From positions 1 to 38,167 of the forward strand of contig JAJYWL010000009.1 in NCBI GenBank assembly GCA_021791545.1: a DNA stretch of 38,167 bases, written 5' to 3'. The notes below the pieces were generated by a model. The model ran no database searches. It was not told where the DNA came from and saw only the letters and a list, made by a program, of their open reading frames with translations. The stretch comes from a bacterium (GTDB lineage Bacteria; Patescibacteriota; Microgenomatia; Levybacterales; UBA12049). Of the stretch, positions 2,698 through 11,271 are shown one piece after another; within the stretch, counting starts at the first letter, position 1, and every line of letters starts with the position of its first letter. The translations under genes and the position numbers were made by a program.

Positions 2698-3357
2698 TTA
2701 TTTTAGCCTTTTCCTTAGACCTTCCAGAGTGTCTCTGGCTGTACCTTGTCCTCCAAGGCCGAATGCTATTCCGCCGGCTAAAGCGATCATCGCTACCAAT
2801 CCTGTGAACAGGATCCTGATTAGATCGGCTGCGACGCCAAGCTGTGTTAATACAGCAAGGATAACAAAAACATTAATTGCCCATCTGGTAACAGTAGCAA
2901 TTGTTGCCGAAGTTTGTCTGTCAAAACCTTTTGCAGAAGCTTGGATAAGCTCTCCAGCCAGTCTTGCAAGAACAAAACCTACGAGTGCTATTACTGCTGC
3001 TACAAATACGTTAGGCAAATAAAGCAAGAATTCGTTGAGGACAGTAATTATTCTGGGTAATCCCCAAACGTCAGCTGTAGGGATTAAGAAAACAATAATT
3101 ACAAACCATCTAACGATTTCTCCCAATATGTTTGCCCAGACCATTTCATCTTTCAGCTGAGGTATTCCATACCTTTTAAGAAATCTATCCAATTTCAAAG
3201 CTCTGAAAGCACCAACAATGAGTTGTTTAAGGATGGACCCGATGATTACGCCGATAAGAAGAATAACTAGTCCGGCAACAAACTTAGGGGTAAAATAAGC
3301 AATCCCTGCTAGGGCATTATTCAGGGAGGCCGTTAAAGCCGCACTTACATTTGGCAT
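2698..3357 (-). CDS. MscS-like / conserved TM-helix membrane protein
   Basis: A 219-residue protein with about five membrane segments. The N-terminal part (about residues 20-50) resembles the conserved TM helix repeat found in small channel-like proteins, and the last membrane segment carries GGIAFGLGGQGTARD, the glycine-rich pore-helix pattern typical of MscS-type mechanosensitive channels. The large cytoplasmic beta domain of true MscS is absent: the protein ends at about residue 219 with the basic LEGLRKRLK. It is probably a small channel or osmotic-stress membrane protein. The ATG is preceded by the best Shine-Dalgarno in the window (AAGGAGGTGA, 5 nt spacing), and a TTGACA-N17-TATGCT promoter lies just upstream. 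A terminator follows, so it is a single-gene unit. Confidence 0.8.
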   Translation of the reverse strand: MPNVSAALTASLNNALAGIAYFTPKFVAGLVILLIGVIIGSILKQLIVGAFRALKLDRFLKRYGIPQLKDEMVWANILGEIVRWFVIIVFLIPTADVWGLPRIITVLNEFLLYLPNVFVAAVIALVGFVLARLAGELIQASAKGFDRQTSATIATVTRWAINVFVILAVLTQLGVAADLIRILFTGLVAMIALAGGIAFGLGGQGTARDTLEGLRKRLK

Positions 3358-3505: not shown

Positions 3506-3577
3506 GGGCCGGTAGCTCAGTGGCAGAGCAGGAGCCTTTTAAGCTCTTGGTCGTGGGTTCGAATCCCTCCCGGCTCA
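3506..3577 (+). tRNA. tRNA-Lys (anticodon TTT)
   Basis: Cloverleaf with acceptor GGGCCGG/CCGGCTC, D-arm AGCTCAGTGGCAGAGC, anticodon loop CTTTTAA (TTT), T-arm GGGTTCGAATCCC and discriminator A. CCA is not encoded. The histidine kinase gene starts 27 nt after its 3' end with no separate promoter visible. Confidence 0.95.
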
Positions 3578-3604: not shown

Positions 3605-4765
3605 ATGGCAAAAAAATATCTTTCACCAAATATTCCCTTAGATGAAAAAAAAAGATTAAATTCTTTGTACCATCTTAAAATTCTAGATACTCTTCCTGAG
3701 GAAAGATTTGACAGAATAACAAAACTTGCAACTTCCTTATTCGGTGTACCCATTTCGACAATAACTCTCATAGATTCAAATAGAGAATGGTTTAAATCTT
3801 GTCAGGGACTTGATAATAGAGAAGGAAAAAGAGCTATCTCGTTTTGTGGACACGCAATACTTGAGGACGAAGAACTAATAATTAACGACACTCTCAAAGA
3901 TGAAAGATTTAGAAATAACCCGATGGTAACGAAAAAACCAAAGATTAGATTTTATGCCGGAATTCCATTAAGGTCTGCTGACGGATTTAAAGTTGGAGTA
4001 CTTTGTATTAAAGATACAAAACCAAGAAAGTTAAGTTTCGAACAAAAAGAAAATCTTAAGAGACTGGCAAAATGGGCAGAGATTGAACTTAATATGCATG
4101 AACTTTCTAATTCTCTTGAAGCAAGAAAAAATGCCGAAGATAAAATTGTAAAATTAAACGATACATTAAAACTATTAAACAAAATTTTAAGACATGATTT
4201 ATTTAATAATTTAACGGTAATTAATAATAAAATTAAGCTTTTTCTTAGAAAATCTATAGATGAAGACTCATTAAAAAATACGATAGATACCGTAGAAAGA
4301 AGCATTGATCTTATAAATCAAGTAAAACACATGGAAGATACCGTAACAAGTGGATCTGAAATCAAAAGATATAAAGCGGAAAATATGATCAAGAAAGTTG
4401 CAAGAGAATTTCCTCAATTAAAGATTACAGTTAATGGTGATCAGGTTGTTGTTGACGAAAATTTCTTTTCAGTTTTTGAAAACATAATAAGAAACGCATA
4501 CATTCACGGAAATGCAGACAGGGTCTCAGTAAAAGTAAAACAGATAGATGAAAAAGCAGAGATAAGTTTTTCAGACAACGGAATAGGGATTCCTGACAAA
4601 ATTAAAGAAAAAATATTTGATGAAGGATTTAAATATGGAGAGAATGGCCATACAGGATTAGGACTTTATATAGTTAAAAATATAATTGAAAGCTATGAGG
4701 GAACTGTTTCGGTGAAAAACAATAAACCCAAAGGAAGCGTATTTACCCTTCGCTTCAAAGCCTAA
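3605..4765 (+). CDS. GAF-domain sensor histidine kinase (orphan)
   Basis: A 386-residue soluble kinase. Residues about 25-160 form a GAF sensor domain (opening LNSLYHLKILDTLPEERFD, a pattern common in GAF kinases). The phospho-acceptor H197 lies in ILRHDLFNNL, an H-box style frequent in archaeal-type histidine kinases. The HATPase part has the N-box NIIRNAYIHG (about 293), G1 DNGIGIP (about 324) and G2 GHTGLGLYIVK (about 349). There is no membrane segment, so it should sense a cytoplasmic signal. No response regulator is encoded in the window. It follows tRNA-Lys by 27 nt and probably shares its transcript. The 3' end nearly touches the convergent EamA-like gene. The signal sensed is unknown. 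Confidence 0.88.
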   Translation: MAKKYLSPNIPLDEKKRLNSLYHLKILDTLPEERFDRITKLATSLFGVPISTITLIDSNREWFKSCQGLDNREGKRAISFCGHAILEDEELIINDTLKDERFRNNPMVTKKPKIRFYAGIPLRSADGFKVGVLCIKDTKPRKLSFEQKENLKRLAKWAEIELNMHELSNSLEARKNAEDKIVKLNDTLKLLNKILRHDLFNNLTVINNKIKLFLRKSIDEDSLKNTIDTVERSIDLINQVKHMEDTVTSGSEIKRYKAENMIKKVAREFPQLKITVNGDQVVVDENFFSVFENIIRNAYIHGNADRVSVKVKQIDEKAEISFSDNGIGIPDKIKEKIFDEGFKYGENGHTGLGLYIVKNIIESYEGTVSVKNNKPKGSVFTLRFKA

Positions 4766-5223: not shown

Positions 5224-6330
5224 TTACCATTTATCAATCTCGTGGAAAATTTTAAAGTATTCGTCAGGATTAGATTCGAATTTTCCTACCGATTGCAAAA
5301 TTCTGTAATAATAATTTTCGTATCTGTCTGTCATTATCTCCGAATTAAAATTCCTCAAGGAATAGCTTCTACAGTAATTCCTACTGATTATTCCTATGTT
5401 ATCTACTGCTTCTATAAGTTCGTCCAGGTCGTTTACTACAAAGCCCGTTTTCCCATGAAGCACTATCTCTGAGGTTGATCCTTTATCTAAAGCCACAACG
5501 GGACATCCTGTTGCCATTGCTTCTATCATTGTCAGACCAAAAGGCTCATTCCACGTGACAGGGTGTAAAAGGCATAATGCTTTTGTCATAAGTTCGTTTC
5601 TTTCCTGTTCGTTTATTTCGCCAATCCATTTTATTCTTTCTCCGATTAATCTTGGTTTTATATATTCATTAAAATAAGGAATATTTTGTTTATCCAGTTT
5701 TGCAGCAATAACCAATGGAAGATCAAGAGCTTGTGCAACATCTATTGCAAGATGAGTTCCTTTTTCCATATCTATCCTCCCAACATATAAGAGATAGCCG
5801 TCGCTGTAACCGGCAAAGGGGTAATTTTTCATATTAAGACCGTTGTAAATGGTTTGAGTCTGAATATCGGGAAAATGTTTTACCTGAGCCCTGGAAATCG
5901 ATACATAGTAAGGATTTGTAAAGGTTTCATATAGTCTTTTGTTATTTTTATTTATATTCCCGTGAATCGTCATTACAACAGGAGTTTTAGAAAACTGAGC
6001 GACATTAAGCCCAAAAACACTATTATGGTCATGAATGATGTCGAATTCTCTTTGCTTCATGTATGCTCTTCCTATATGAAGTGCAGTCCACTCATTTAAT
6101 CCGTAATGATTTTGTACTCCCGCTTCTCTTAGGGATATAGGAAAGGCGGAATCAAGTTTTGCGCTTGTAATTGAATCACCTGTAGCAAAAAGCGTTACGT
6201 CGTGTCCTCTTTTTACAAGCTCTTCTGTGAGAGACGAAACTACTCTTTCTGTGCCTCCATATTTGGGCGGAGGTACTCTTTCCGCAGCGGGCGCTATCAT
6301 TGCTATTTTTAGTTTTCTTGGCTTTTCCAT
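5224..6330 (-). CDS. GT4-family glycosyltransferase
   Basis: About 368 residues from the ATG at 6330 (MEKPRKLKIAMIAP). It has a GT-B fold: the N-terminal Rossmann part carries PPPKYGGTERVVSSLTEELV, and the C-terminal half has the donor-binding segment YLLYVGRIDMEKG and the GT4 signature EPFGLTMIEAMATGCPVVAL, including the two glutamates of the E-x7-E motif. Such enzymes transfer a nucleotide-activated sugar to lipid or glycan acceptors at the membrane, probably for cell-surface polysaccharide; the sugar is unknown. A 19-codon upstream extension to an ATG at 6387 is open but hydrophobic and less like the family start. It is divergent from the stress-protein gene. Confidence 0.88.
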   Translation of the reverse strand: MEKPRKLKIAMIAPAAERVPPPKYGGTERVVSSLTEELVKRGHDVTLFATGDSITSAKLDSAFPISLREAGVQNHYGLNEWTALHIGRAYMKQREFDIIHDHNSVFGLNVAQFSKTPVVMTIHGNINKNNKRLYETFTNPYYVSISRAQVKHFPDIQTQTIYNGLNMKNYPFAGYSDGYLLYVGRIDMEKGTHLAIDVAQALDLPLVIAAKLDKQNIPYFNEYIKPRLIGERIKWIGEINEQERNELMTKALCLLHPVTWNEPFGLTMIEAMATGCPVVALDKGSTSEIVLHGKTGFVVNDLDELIEAVDNIGIISRNYCRSYSLRNFNSEIMTDRYENYYYRILQSVGKFESNPDEYFKIFHEIDKW

Positions 6331-6464
6331 AGAGACCGATGATAAACAATCAATATAAAAAGAGAGTAAGAAAATATACTCATGCATTCTTTCAATACTC
6401 TTACATATAATTGCTTTTTTCCTTATGAACTTTCCTCTATATTAATTTAACGAAAGGATAAATT

Positions 6465-7046
6465 ATGACAAGAATGTTACTGGGAATATTTTCAAACAGG
6501 TCTGATGCAGACAACGCGGTAAACGAATTAAGAAGTAATGGATTTGACCCCAAAAATATCTCAATCATCATGAGAGGGGAGAAAGACAACGTTGTTGTGA
6601 ATGACGGAAATAATAATTCATTAGGAGCAAATATCATACAAGGAGCAGCTTCCGGAGCTACTACAGGTGGAGTGATAGGTGGTATTGCAGGACTTTTAGT
6701 CGGAATTGGAGCCATAGCAGTTCCCGGAATAGGTGCGCTTTTGATAGGTGGTCCTTTGGCGGCAGCGTTAGGACTAACAGGTGCAGCTGCAACCACGGTA
6801 TCGGGTGCAGTAACGGGTCTTCTTGCAGGTGGGTTGGTTGGAGGACTTATGGGGATAGGACTTCCTGAAAATGAGGCAAGATTATACGAAGAAAGACTAA
6901 GAGAGGGTGGAATATTGGTTGCAGCAGTAACCGATCATGAAACAGAAGACGAAGCAAGAGATATATTGGAGGAAAATAACGCAGATCAGATAAGATCAAT
7001 AAATATCGATCAGAATACATCAAGACATGAGCATGTTGTTTCTTAA
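6465..7046 (+). CDS. general stress protein 17M / YflT-like protein with glycine-zipper region
   Basis: A 193-residue protein in three parts. An N-terminal alpha/beta domain (about 1-50, with GIFSNRSDADNAVNELRSNG) matches the YflT/GSP17M type of stress domain. A long Gly/Ala-rich segment (about 53-135) has repeated GxxxG patterns and would insert in or lie on the membrane. A C-terminal alpha/beta domain (about 140-180, GGILVAAVTDHETEDEARDIL) echoes the N-terminal one. The exact role is unknown; homologues are induced by general stress. An AAAGG Shine-Dalgarno lies about 8 nt before the ATG, and a TATATT -10 candidate is at 6438-6443. The 3' side runs into the candidate structured RNA. Confidence 0.82.
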   Translation: MTRMLLGIFSNRSDADNAVNELRSNGFDPKNISIIMRGEKDNVVVNDGNNNSLGANIIQGAASGATTGGVIGGIAGLLVGIGAIAVPGIGALLIGGPLAAALGLTGAAATTVSGAVTGLLAGGLVGGLMGIGLPENEARLYEERLREGGILVAAVTDHETEDEARDILEENNADQIRSINIDQNTSRHEHVVS

Positions 7047-7062
7047 GTAATTAAGAGACTGA

Positions 7063-7197
7063 AATAAGGGACAATCTTATAGATTTAAGTGGTGCTTCTT
7101 AACTTGCACAACTGGCACTTAAGTCTTTCCTGCGAGGACGGATTATAGAAATATTTTCCGTAAACTCTTTAAGGAGGTGATTGTCCTTTATTTTTGT
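7063..7197 (+). ncRNA. candidate structured RNA (3' UTR element or small RNA), family unknown
   Basis: The region between the stress gene and the IMPDH/GMPR gene folds on paper into a closed multi-arm structure. The outer stem pairs GGACAATC (7069-7076) with GATTGTCC (7179-7186); outside it the flanks 7063-7068 and 7187-7192 can also pair except at one position. Arm 1 pairs GATTTAAGTG (7082-7091) with CACTTAAGTC (7116-7125) and encloses a GTGC/GCAC hairpin. Arm 2 is a small TCCT-GCG-AGGA hairpin. Arm 3 pairs ACGGA (7138-7142) with TCCGT (7157-7161) and is capped by ATA-GAAA-TAT. A T-rich tract follows the outer stem on the plus strand, as after a terminator. I do not recognise it as SRP RNA, tmRNA, RNase P or a named riboswitch. 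Confidence 0.45.
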
Positions 7198-8249
7198 TGA
7201 GAAAGAGAACTTAGCCAGGGGATTGATTCGGATTGTGTAGAACTTGATACAAGGTTGAAAATTGCTTTCTTTTGGAAGTCTTCTATTGATTGTGCTCCGG
7301 CATAAGTCATTGCACTTCTAAGGCCACCCATTAATTCATATACCACTTTTTCTACAGGACCTTTGGCAGGAACTCTTATAGAAACACCTTCGGCAGTTCT
7401 AAATTCTCCTGTCTCTACGCCGTTATCTTTCATATATTCGGCGGAAGCTTGGCCTCTTGCTATCTTATATCCGTTCACCACACGTCCTGGAGCTTCGTCT
7501 GTTCCTGCAAATAATGAACCTATCATTACCAAATTTGCTCCTGCCGCAATGGCTTTTGCAAAATCGGCTGGTTTTTTGACTCCGCCGTCGGCAATTACAT
7601 CTATTCCTGACGAGGTTGTCTCAAATACGGCAGAGAGTTGAGGAAAGCCGTTTCCCGCAACAAGTCTTGTGATACAAAGACCTCCCGGACCGACACCTAC
7701 TCTTGCAAAATCTATACCAGCCTTTTTGTATTCCTTTGCCTGTTCATATGTAACTATGTTTCCTGCTATAACAAAAACCTTAAGTTCTTTCTTTATTTTA
7801 GTAGCAAGTTCCTTGACTCTTTGCATTCCTCCGTTTGCAACATCAACTAGGATAACTTTTGCACCGGCATCTATGAGTTCTTTTGCTTCTTCAAAACCGT
7901 TTTTTAATCCTACGGCATATACGCAGGCAATATTCTCCTGGGTGAATTTTTTGCAAAGTTTTTTTCTATCCTCAAGATCTCCTCTAGGTAAGATGCCTAT
8001 AGCTCCCAATTGGAATAATTTTCTTATCATATCTTCTCCACAAATAGTATCCATTGGGGCTGCAATTATCGGCTTTTCCAATAGATATGGCCCTAATTTG
8101 ACTCTCGTATCAACGGCGCTTCTTGATAATGCTTTTGAACTTTGGGGAACTAAAAGAACATCATCATAGGTTAGTGAGGTAGGGTTTACCGAGCCGACAT
8201 CCGGCCAAGAAGTTGTTTTCCCGAGATACTTATAGAAGGTTTTAGACAT
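7188..8249 (-). CDS. IMP dehydrogenase/GMP reductase-family protein lacking CBS domains
   Basis: A 353-residue TIM-barrel oxidoreductase of purine nucleotide metabolism. The catalytic cysteine is C192 in GPGGLCITR, followed by [12 protein letters not shown]. The phosphate-binding segments VIADGG (about 219) and MIGSLFAGT (about 242) are present. There is no CBS pair after the first 100 residues, which makes it shorter than typical GuaB (about 490 aa). DVANG, AGNIVT and PQLSAV are closer to GMP reductase, whereas [20 protein letters not shown] is closer to IMP dehydrogenase, so the reaction direction cannot be fixed by eye. It starts at ATG 8249; no Shine-Dalgarno is seen, and the leader contains a terminator-like hairpin. 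The stop codon sits inside the flanking pairing of the structured RNA. Confidence 0.85.
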
Positions 8250-8257
8250 TAAACCAA

Positions 8258-8280
8258 TAAAAATTCCGCTTTGGGCGGAA
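8258..8280 (-). promoter_or_regulatory. terminator-like hairpin (possible attenuator) in the IMPDH/GMPR leader
   Basis: On the minus strand TTCCGC (8275-8280) pairs with GCGGAA (8264-8269) over a five-base loop and is followed directly by TTTTTATT. It lies inside the predicted transcript, between the -10 box and the ATG at 8249, so it may regulate read-through into the gene. Confidence 0.55.
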
Positions 8281-8296
8281 ATTGTTTCCCTTAAAG

Positions 8297-8325
8297 ATAC
8301 TAATCCATCGGATTTTCTTTGTCAA
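8297..8325 (-). promoter_or_regulatory. promoter of the IMPDH/GMPR-family gene
   Basis: On the minus strand: consensus TTGACA (8320-8325), 17 nt, TAGTAT (8297-8302). It is divergent from and back-to-back with the uvrA promoter. Confidence 0.75.
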
Positions 8326-8330
8326 TACAC

Positions 8331-8359
8331 TTGCCTGAATAAAAAAATAGGACTATAAT
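8331..8359 (+). promoter_or_regulatory. promoter of uvrA
   Basis: TTGCCT (8331-8336), 17 nt, TATAAT (8354-8359). The start would be near 8366, giving a leader of about 23 nt before the ATG at 8389. Confidence 0.7.
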
Positions 8360-8388
8360 ATTTGGTCAATAAAAACAACCAGATTATT

Positions 8389-11271
8389 ATGGATAAAATA
8401 ACAGTAAAAGGGGCACGAGAAAATAATCTTAAAGATATAGATGTAGAAATACCAAAAAATAAACTGGTAGTTTTAACAGGTATTTCCGGTAGTGGAAAAT
8501 CATCTCTTGCTTTCGATACGATTTATGCCGAAGGACAAAGAAGATACGTTGAAAGCCTATCCTCATACGCAAGACAGTTCTTGGGTGTAATGAAAAAACC
8601 CGATATAGATTTAATAGAAGGTCTTTCTCCCGCAATATCAATAGATCAGAAATCAACTTCGCATAATCCAAGGTCTACAGTGGGTACGGTAACCGAAATT
8701 TATGATTATTTAAGACTTTTGTTTGCAAGAATAGGACATCCTCATTGTCCAAACTGCGGAAGAGAAATAACCCATTTATCAAAAGAACAGATAGTCAATT
8801 CCATATACTCGCTTTTAGATACCAATCCCAGGATAAAAATGCTTATTCTGGCCCCTATTGTTAAAGGAAGAAAAGGTGAATATGTGGAGCTTTTTCAGGA
8901 TCTAAGAAAAAGAGGATATAAAAGAGCAAGAATTGATAAGCAAGTTTATTCCCTTGATGAGGATTTCATTCTTATTAAAACAAATAAACACACAATAGAA
9001 GCTGTTATAGACCAGGTCGTGTTTACAAAAGATACGGATAGGGGAAGGATAGCAACGGATGTCGAACAAGGACTTAAACTCGGAGACGGTGAAATAATAA
9101 TAGCCGAAATAAAAGATCCGGGATTCGATATTCCCGAAAAACCAAAGAAAATGGAAGATACCCTTTTTTCCGAAAAATTTGCCTGTCCTATCGATAATAT
9201 TTTTCTTCCGGAACTTGAACCGAGAATCTTTTCCTTTAATACACCCCACGGTGCATGTCCGGAATGCGACGGGTTGGGAACTATTCTTACGGTAGATAGA
9301 GACTTGGTATTTAACGACAACCTTACAATAAACGAAGGCGGGATAATGCCGTTCTCCAACCAATTGTCACACGATACCTGGTTCTCAAGAACTTTCAAGA
9401 CTTTCTGTGAAGAAAACGGAATTTCCCTGACCAAAAGATTCGGAGAGATATCGGACGAACAGAAAGAACTTATTCTTATGGGAACAGGAGAGAAAGAATA
9501 CTACGTTGAAGGAGAAAATAGGTGGGGAAGAGAAACCGCAATAAATGAACCGTTTAAAGGCATACTCCATGAACTAAAGGAAAGATATCAATCGACAGAA
9601 TCCGTATTTCTTAAATCTCAAATAGAAAGATATATGAGATATGAGTCTTGCCCCGTCTGTAAGGGCTCCAGACTTAAAAAAGAAGCATTATCGATAACTG
9701 TTGACGACAAATCAATCGTAGATGTATCGGATATGTCTGTTCATGATTCTTATCAGTTCTTCGATTCATTAAAGAATAAGATTTCCGACAGGGAAAACGA
9801 AATTGGAAAGATCATATTGAAAGAAATTAAGCAAAGGCTTTCTTTTCTTTTGGACGTCGGTCTTGATTACCTTACTCTCTCAAGAGGCGCAAATACCCTG
9901 GCGGGAGGAGAAGCACAGAGAATAAGACTAGCTTCCCAGATAGGGTCGGGTCTTACGGGAGTTCTATATGTACTTGACGAACCCTCGATAGGACTTCATC
10001 AAAGAGATAATCAAAAACTCATAGATACTCTCAAGAAGCTAAGGGATTTGGGAAATACCGTTTTGGTCGTAGAACACGATGAAGAAACCATGGAGCAATC
10101 CGACTATATAATTGACTTTGGTCCTGGAGCAGGCGAGCAAGGGGGAAACATAATAGCAAAAGGAACGATAGGAGAAATAAAAGAAAATCCAAATTCTTTA
10201 ACGGGAGAATATCTTTCGTTAAGAAAAAAGATAAAAGTATTGAATACAAATAAACAACTACTCCAAAATAATAAAGCTATTTCATTAATAGGAGCTTCCG
10301 AGCATAATCTTAAAAACGTAGACGTCGATTTCCCTCTTAATAAGTTAGTTGTCGTAACCGGAGTTTCGGGAAGCGGCAAATCTACTTTAGTAAACGATAT
10401 TTTATACCATGCCTTAATGGCAAAAAGTAACCCCTTTCACAAAGAAAAACCGGGTAGATTCAAGACACTTTCGGGATACGAAAACATTAAGAATATATAT
10501 ATGATTGATCAATCACCAATAGGAAGAACGCCAAGAAGTAATCCCGCAACCTATACGGGTTCCTTCAACTACATAAGGGAGATGTTCGCAAAGACTAAAG
10601 ACGCAAGACTTAAGGGCTATGGACCCGGAAGATTTTCATTCAATGTAAAAGGAGGAAGATGCGAAGCATGTGAGGGAGAAGGAAGAATCAAAATTGAAAT
10701 GCAGTTCCTACCCGATGTCTATGTTACCTGCGAGGTCTGCAATGGTAAACAATACAATAGAGAAGCTTTAGAGGTTACATTAAATGGAAAAAATATTGCA
10801 GAAGTTTTAGCAATGAGTGTTTCTGAAGCTCTAACATTTTTTGCAAATGTGCCAAGTCTTGCTCATAAGCTACAGACATTAAATGATGTTGGGTTATCAT
10901 ATATTAAGTTGGGACAGCCGGCTCCAACATTGTCGGGAGGAGAAGCACAGAGAGTAAAGCTTGCATCCGAACTATCGAAAAGAGGTTCTAATGCTTTGTA
11001 TCTTCTCGATGAGCCTACGACGGGTCTTCATTTCGCAGACTTGGAGAAACTGTTATATGTCCTTCGAAGACTTGTTGATCAGGGTAATACCGTAATAGTA
11101 ATAGAACATAACCTTGATGTCATAAAAAATGCCGATTATATAATTGATCTTGGACCGGAAGGCGGGGAAAAAGGCGGAGAAATCGTTGTTAAGGGTACTC
11201 CCGAAGAAGTAGCTGCAAACAAAAGATCTTATACCGGCCAATTCCTAAGTAAGCACTTGTTTACAAAATAA
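8389..11271 (+). CDS. uvrA: UvrABC excinuclease subunit A
   Basis: A 960-residue DNA-damage recognition ATPase of nucleotide excision repair. It has two ABC ATPase modules: Walker [10 protein letters not shown] at 31-39 and GVSGSGKST at about 658, signature motifs LAGGEAQR (about 503) and LSGGEAQR (about 849), each followed by an LDEP Walker B. Zinc module 2 is intact (C758, C761, C781, C784). Zinc module 1 has C266, C290 and C293, but the expected fourth cysteine is D269 (FACPID instead of CPxC). I chose ATG 8389 because family proteins start MDKI-xVKGAREN; the frame is also open to a TTG nine codons earlier, next to the -10 box. The transglutaminase-like gene begins 24 bp downstream and uvrC follows it. 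Confidence 0.98.

Follow-up and report, generated by a model that had tools for sequence, protein, structure and literature searches.

A stable three-arm structure in the gap between convergent yflT and GMPR genes of a Patescibacteria-type genome: a candidate branched transcription terminator

Bacterial small RNAs derived from 3′ UTRs end in the terminator of their host mRNA, and regulatory leaders that sequester a Shine-Dalgarno (SD) sequence (riboswitches, thermometers) hold a strong SD motif in one of the stems around a multi-arm junction. In case of intrinsic (Rho-independent) terminators, measured loops have a median length of 4 nt, and terminator searches usually allow loops of 3–13 nt and 59 nt in all (PMC1852404, PMC12207403).

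The element described here was found in a tiny, Patescibacteria-type genome (assembly of 775 kb), in a stretch of 38,167 nucleotides (contig JAJYWL010000009.1) referred to as the window; coordinates refer to the window unless another locus is named (Table 1). A gene for a YflT-domain stress protein (yflT) and one for an IMPDH/GMPR-family enzyme (GMPR) are arranged tail-to-tail, and the 141-bp gap between them is filled by the element, which starts 16 nt past the yflT stop codon and whose closing stem (P1) even covers the GMPR stop codon. The possible −10 box in front of yflT is weakly compatible with a monocistronic yflT transcript.

Table 1. Features of the yflT–GMPR gap and its surroundings (positions in the window)
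Feature	Position	Strand	Remarks
Possible −10 box, TATAAT	6406–6411	+	sequence match only; weak, no good −35 identified
YflT-domain stress protein gene (yflT)	6465–7046	+	ORF of 193 aa; Pfam PF11181, E 6.7e-11
P1, 5′ strand AATAAGGGACAATC	7063–7076	+	pair probabilities 0.99–1.0
P2 arm	7081–7126	+	7081–7091/7116–7126; inner GTGC/GCAC hairpin 7092–7095/7106–7109
P3 arm	7127–7176	+	7127–7131/7172–7176, 7134–7136/7165–7167, 7138–7142/7157–7161, 7145–7147/7152–7154; GAAA loop 7148–7151
16S tail complement AAGGAGGTGAT	7171–7181	+	exactly complementary over 11 nt to the 3′ tail of the organism's own 16S rRNA; mostly base-paired in the structure
P1, 3′ strand GATTGTCCTTTATT	7179–7192	+	overlaps GMPR stop codon (7188–7190, − strand)
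T-rich tract TTTATTTTTGTT	7187–7198	+	expected + strand 3′ end; from sequence
IMPDH/GMPR-family enzyme gene (GMPR)	7188–8249	−	convergent neighbour; Pfam PF00478, E 1.8e-82

The + strand of positions 7063–7197 folds into three arms (P1, P2 and P3) with a minimum free energy of −45.4 kcal/mol, and the same structure is obtained in the longer contexts 6465–7260 and 6900–7350. Pair probabilities exceed 0.85 for nearly all pairs, the least certain ones being 7134–7136/7165–7167 (0.57), 7127/7176 (0.65) and 7081/7126 (0.75). The outer stem of the original prediction (7069–7076/7179–7186) proved to be longer than claimed, since P1 comprises 14 continuous pairs including one G·U and, together with its flanks, reaches 19 pairs with one bulge. 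The proposed 10-bp arm 7082–7091/7116–7125 enclosing GTGC/GCAC was recovered in P2 with pair probabilities of ~0.99 or more, as was the ACGGA/TCCGT arm with its GAAA cap in P3 (7138–7142/7157–7161; 0.87–1.0). The likewise proposed TCCT/AGGA pairing also exists, but not as a small local hairpin: the main partner of TCCT is the distant AGGA at 7172–7175 (0.87–0.90), and P3 is therefore one long arm rather than a local hairpin plus a separate arm.

Stability was far beyond that of shuffled sequence on both strands, as would be expected of the structured RNA originally suggested. None of 200 shuffles folded with an energy as low as that of the + strand (shuffle mean −26.1, sd 3.6; z −5.4), and the − strand (−34.5 kcal/mol) attained a z of −5.1. 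The interior, i.e., both arms without P1, still yielded z −3.5 on the + strand; P3 by itself yielded z −2.2 on this strand, and P2 by itself z −3.4 as compared to −1.8 on the − strand, being below all shuffles on the + strand only. Five pairs are G·U on the + strand and would be A·C mismatches on the − strand. These five pairs together with the lower z of P2 favour the + strand, i.e., transcription from yflT. A stable structured transcript of this strand is supported.

For a genomic background, 298 kb of stretches sampled from the 775-kb assembly were scanned for stems of at least 13 bp, with at most one G·U and a span of 60–190 nt, that end on a T tract. P1 was the sole such stem, and three of eight simulated genomes produced one by chance; the probability of encountering one such combination somewhere in 298 kb is therefore not negligible. 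Pure chance is nevertheless unlikely in view of the position in the gap and the inner arms, and what makes the case strong is that P1, both inner arms and the T tract occur together at this place in the gap. The strongest intergenic folds sampled are otherwise mostly rRNA, tRNA or simple terminator hairpins, against which the multi-branched architecture stands out. The fold is real and unusually stable.

Two side observations concern the same genome. A second unexplained intergenic structure on the − strand of L058 (~5337–5466) consists of a long hairpin AACTATCTCAGGGAGAGAAATCTCCCTGGGGTAG with flanking pairing and has no T tract. The 23S rRNA gene (L063:7866–12061; G000:C10) is 4.2 kb long, with two group I intron matches inside it (8261–8522, 9159–9378).

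Comparison with Rfam 15, at the gathering threshold and with E values up to 10, yielded no family match but only chance-level snoRNA-type scores. The original view that the element is not SRP RNA, tmRNA, RNase P RNA or a riboswitch agrees with this result (no match to the first three, and no riboswitch-regulated gene downstream on the + strand); the 6S RNA model did not match either. No homologue was retrieved by BLAST from 60 relatives or from 380 genomes of the phylum, just short chance pieces, and phages and plasmids likewise gave only such pieces. A covariance model, of limited reach because it was built from one sequence, was run against 73 genomes of the family, 82 of the order and 374 of the class (overlapping sets) as well as nine selected genomes, among them the ones that carry the GMPR orthologues. 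It recognized the window only, besides one chance-level match in G365 (L051; E 0.064 per genome among 374 genomes).

The orthologous GMPR loci (L031–L034) have other 3′ neighbours and no such fold, and the 3′ ends of yflT homologues carry simple terminators or none and no such element. Two viral contigs sharing the 17-mer AAGGGACAATCTTATAG carry that piece alone, and a similar 26-mer in the organism's own genome (C7:29026–29051) falls at the beginning of an unrelated coding gene. Conservation, by which the original prediction was to be judged, was accordingly found in none of the relatives searched (several hundred genomes, none of the same genus, so that youth of the element and sparse sampling look alike). 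The element is so far known from one lineage and one genome and represents an orphan structure.

As originally proposed, a T-rich tract follows the outer stem on the plus strand. The base of P1 (GGGAC/GTCC) runs straight into TTTATTTTTGTT, and the stable stem with adjoining T-rich tract by which intrinsic terminators are recognized is thus present. The enclosed ~100 nt place P1 outside the limits of compact canonical terminators (loop of 3–13 nt, at most 59 nt in total). A consensus scan of the gap found no compact terminator and did not list the element itself either. Other convergent gaps of this genome possess strong simple-hairpin terminators in the same place (L063 ~3720–3880, L067 ~2937–3066), and simple terminator-like hairpins occur right after the stop codon in several yflT homologues (L041, L042, L070, L077, L078, L080). 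The hairpin in L063, an ordinary terminator of this genome, is long and near-perfect (GGTGATACGATAATT/GGTTATCGTATCACC) and is followed by a T tract.

P1 with its tract, the absence of any compact terminator between the two genes and the simple terminators at corresponding places elsewhere make an oversized, branched intrinsic terminator, which at the same time forms the 3′-UTR end structure of the yflT mRNA, the best reading, and it is adopted here with moderate confidence. Of the three options offered by the original prediction, a complex terminator and an element in the 3′ UTR of the stress gene are hence jointly retained as the best fit; the third, a small RNA, is not supported as a conserved one, since no homologue was found. 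During transcription of yflT by RNA polymerase, P2 and P3 would fold while emerging and, once folded, probably bring both strands of P1 together. P1 would then zip up beside the U-rich tract, with release of the transcript near 7195. Being compact, the fold would also shield the 3′ terminus of the mRNA against exonucleases, and polymerases coming from the convergent GMPR gene could be stopped by it, at least in part. However, two things are left unexplained by a plain terminator, namely the arms P2 and P3 and the 11-nt stretch complementary to the 16S rRNA tail.

This complement, AAGGAGGTGAT, has only one further copy in the 775-kb assembly, which is simply the 16S gene read on its complementary strand; about one copy per 775 kb is expected by chance (scaled), which is about what is observed. 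Its occurrence inside this 135-nt element is not expected by chance, but this was noticed post hoc and serves as a lead rather than a test. Matches of at least 9 nt to the 16S tail are rarely accidental in this genome, nearly all of those in the 298 kb being ribosome-binding sites with a start codon a few nt further on. No ATG, GTG or TTG follows AAGGAGGTGAT at usable spacing; a small protein started from it was ruled out, the next TTG giving just 6 codons.

One may consider a small RNA, either derived from the 3′ UTR or independent, in which AAGGAGGTGAT would bind the tail of the 16S rRNA by base pairing and curb translation initiation in dependence on stress-gene expression, with P3 gating the motif via TTCCT. 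P2 and P3 are indeed more elaborate than a terminator requires, and the predicted duplex with the 16S tail (−23.4 kcal/mol) outweighs the ~11 kcal/mol needed to open the site, which would allow, without proof, either a small RNA that binds ribosomes or the remnant of a ribosome-binding site. On the other hand, most of AAGGAGGTGAT is paired by P3 and P1, a single copy is within chance expectation, a consensus scan revealed no evident promoter of the element's own, neither BLAST nor the single-sequence model detected a homologue, and a literature search yielded no comparable RNA. A small RNA of this kind therefore appears unlikely. A more specific version is a long shot: a stress-linked small RNA confined to this lineage, released from the yflT message at its 3′ end, would present a gated, full-length SD motif devoid of a start codon as a decoy for the 30S subunit.

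The 16S tail complement might alternatively be the relic of a gene that once lay downstream of yflT: its ribosome-binding site and leader would have been severed by rearrangement at the GMPR 3′ end and later folded into, or reused as, the terminator. The interval GMPR–tRNA–MscS is rearranged in every close relative seen: in L031–L033, whose GMPR is 72–75 % identical, other sequence lies between GMPR and the same mechanosensitive-channel gene (2698–3357 in the window). The yflT–GMPR junction is hence young. Moreover, a strong ribosome-binding-site motif occurs behind some yflT homologues and is directly followed by a start codon in L044 and L070 (also L074), while AAGGAGGTGAT of the window is devoid of one. 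The 14-bp P1 with its T tract would, however, need a separate explanation, and no remnant coding sequence was seen, the sequence from 7188 onwards being coding sequence of GMPR. Such a relic is decidedly unlikely.

The segment 3578–7187, between GMPR and an apparent tRNA-Lys gene (3506–3577) beside the MscS-like channel gene, is a variable spot: it contains GAF/histidine-kinase, EamA, glycosyltransferase and yflT genes in the window, and other genes or just the tRNA in L031, L032 and L033. In L033 (5050–5340), 12 nt of the tRNA 3′ end (TGAGCCGGGTGG) recur slightly more than 100 nt away from the tRNA, towards GMPR, and resemble an attachment-site scar. A tRNA-attachment origin of the element itself was rejected, as the window contains neither extra copies nor duplicated flanks.

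A perfect-ended inverted repeat within a rearranged interval could also represent a single copy of a mobile, MITE-like element with P1 as its terminal repeats, but only one copy is present in the genome, none was found in relatives, phages, plasmids or viral contigs, and the flanks show no target-site duplication, which renders this origin very improbable. A cis-regulatory leader or riboswitch-like element of the + strand, to which the multi-arm junction with its sequestered SD motif might point, is hardly credible, since the absence of a downstream gene on this strand (the next one, GMPR, being on the opposite strand) largely refutes it and neither an Rfam match nor homologues were found.

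If the branched terminator holds true, a branched hairpin of ~130 nt, invisible to finders limited to 59 nt, can serve in intrinsic termination, and the 3′ limits of genes could be overlooked systematically in reduced genomes; the decoy, if true, would constitute a new way of coupling translation to stress. Compared with known systems, the element resembles SD-sequestering leaders in having a strong SD motif paired within one stem of its multi-arm junction, but differs from them in lacking a downstream gene on the same strand. It resembles 3′-UTR-derived small RNAs in position, size and terminator-like 3′ end, whereas it has no homologues. With intrinsic terminators, including bidirectional ones between convergent genes, it has in common a G+C-containing stem that borders directly on a U-rich tract, located between genes arranged tail-to-tail; in contrast to their loops of 3–13 nt within 59 nt or less (PMC1852404, PMC12207403), it encloses ~100 nt with two arms and extends over 130 nt.
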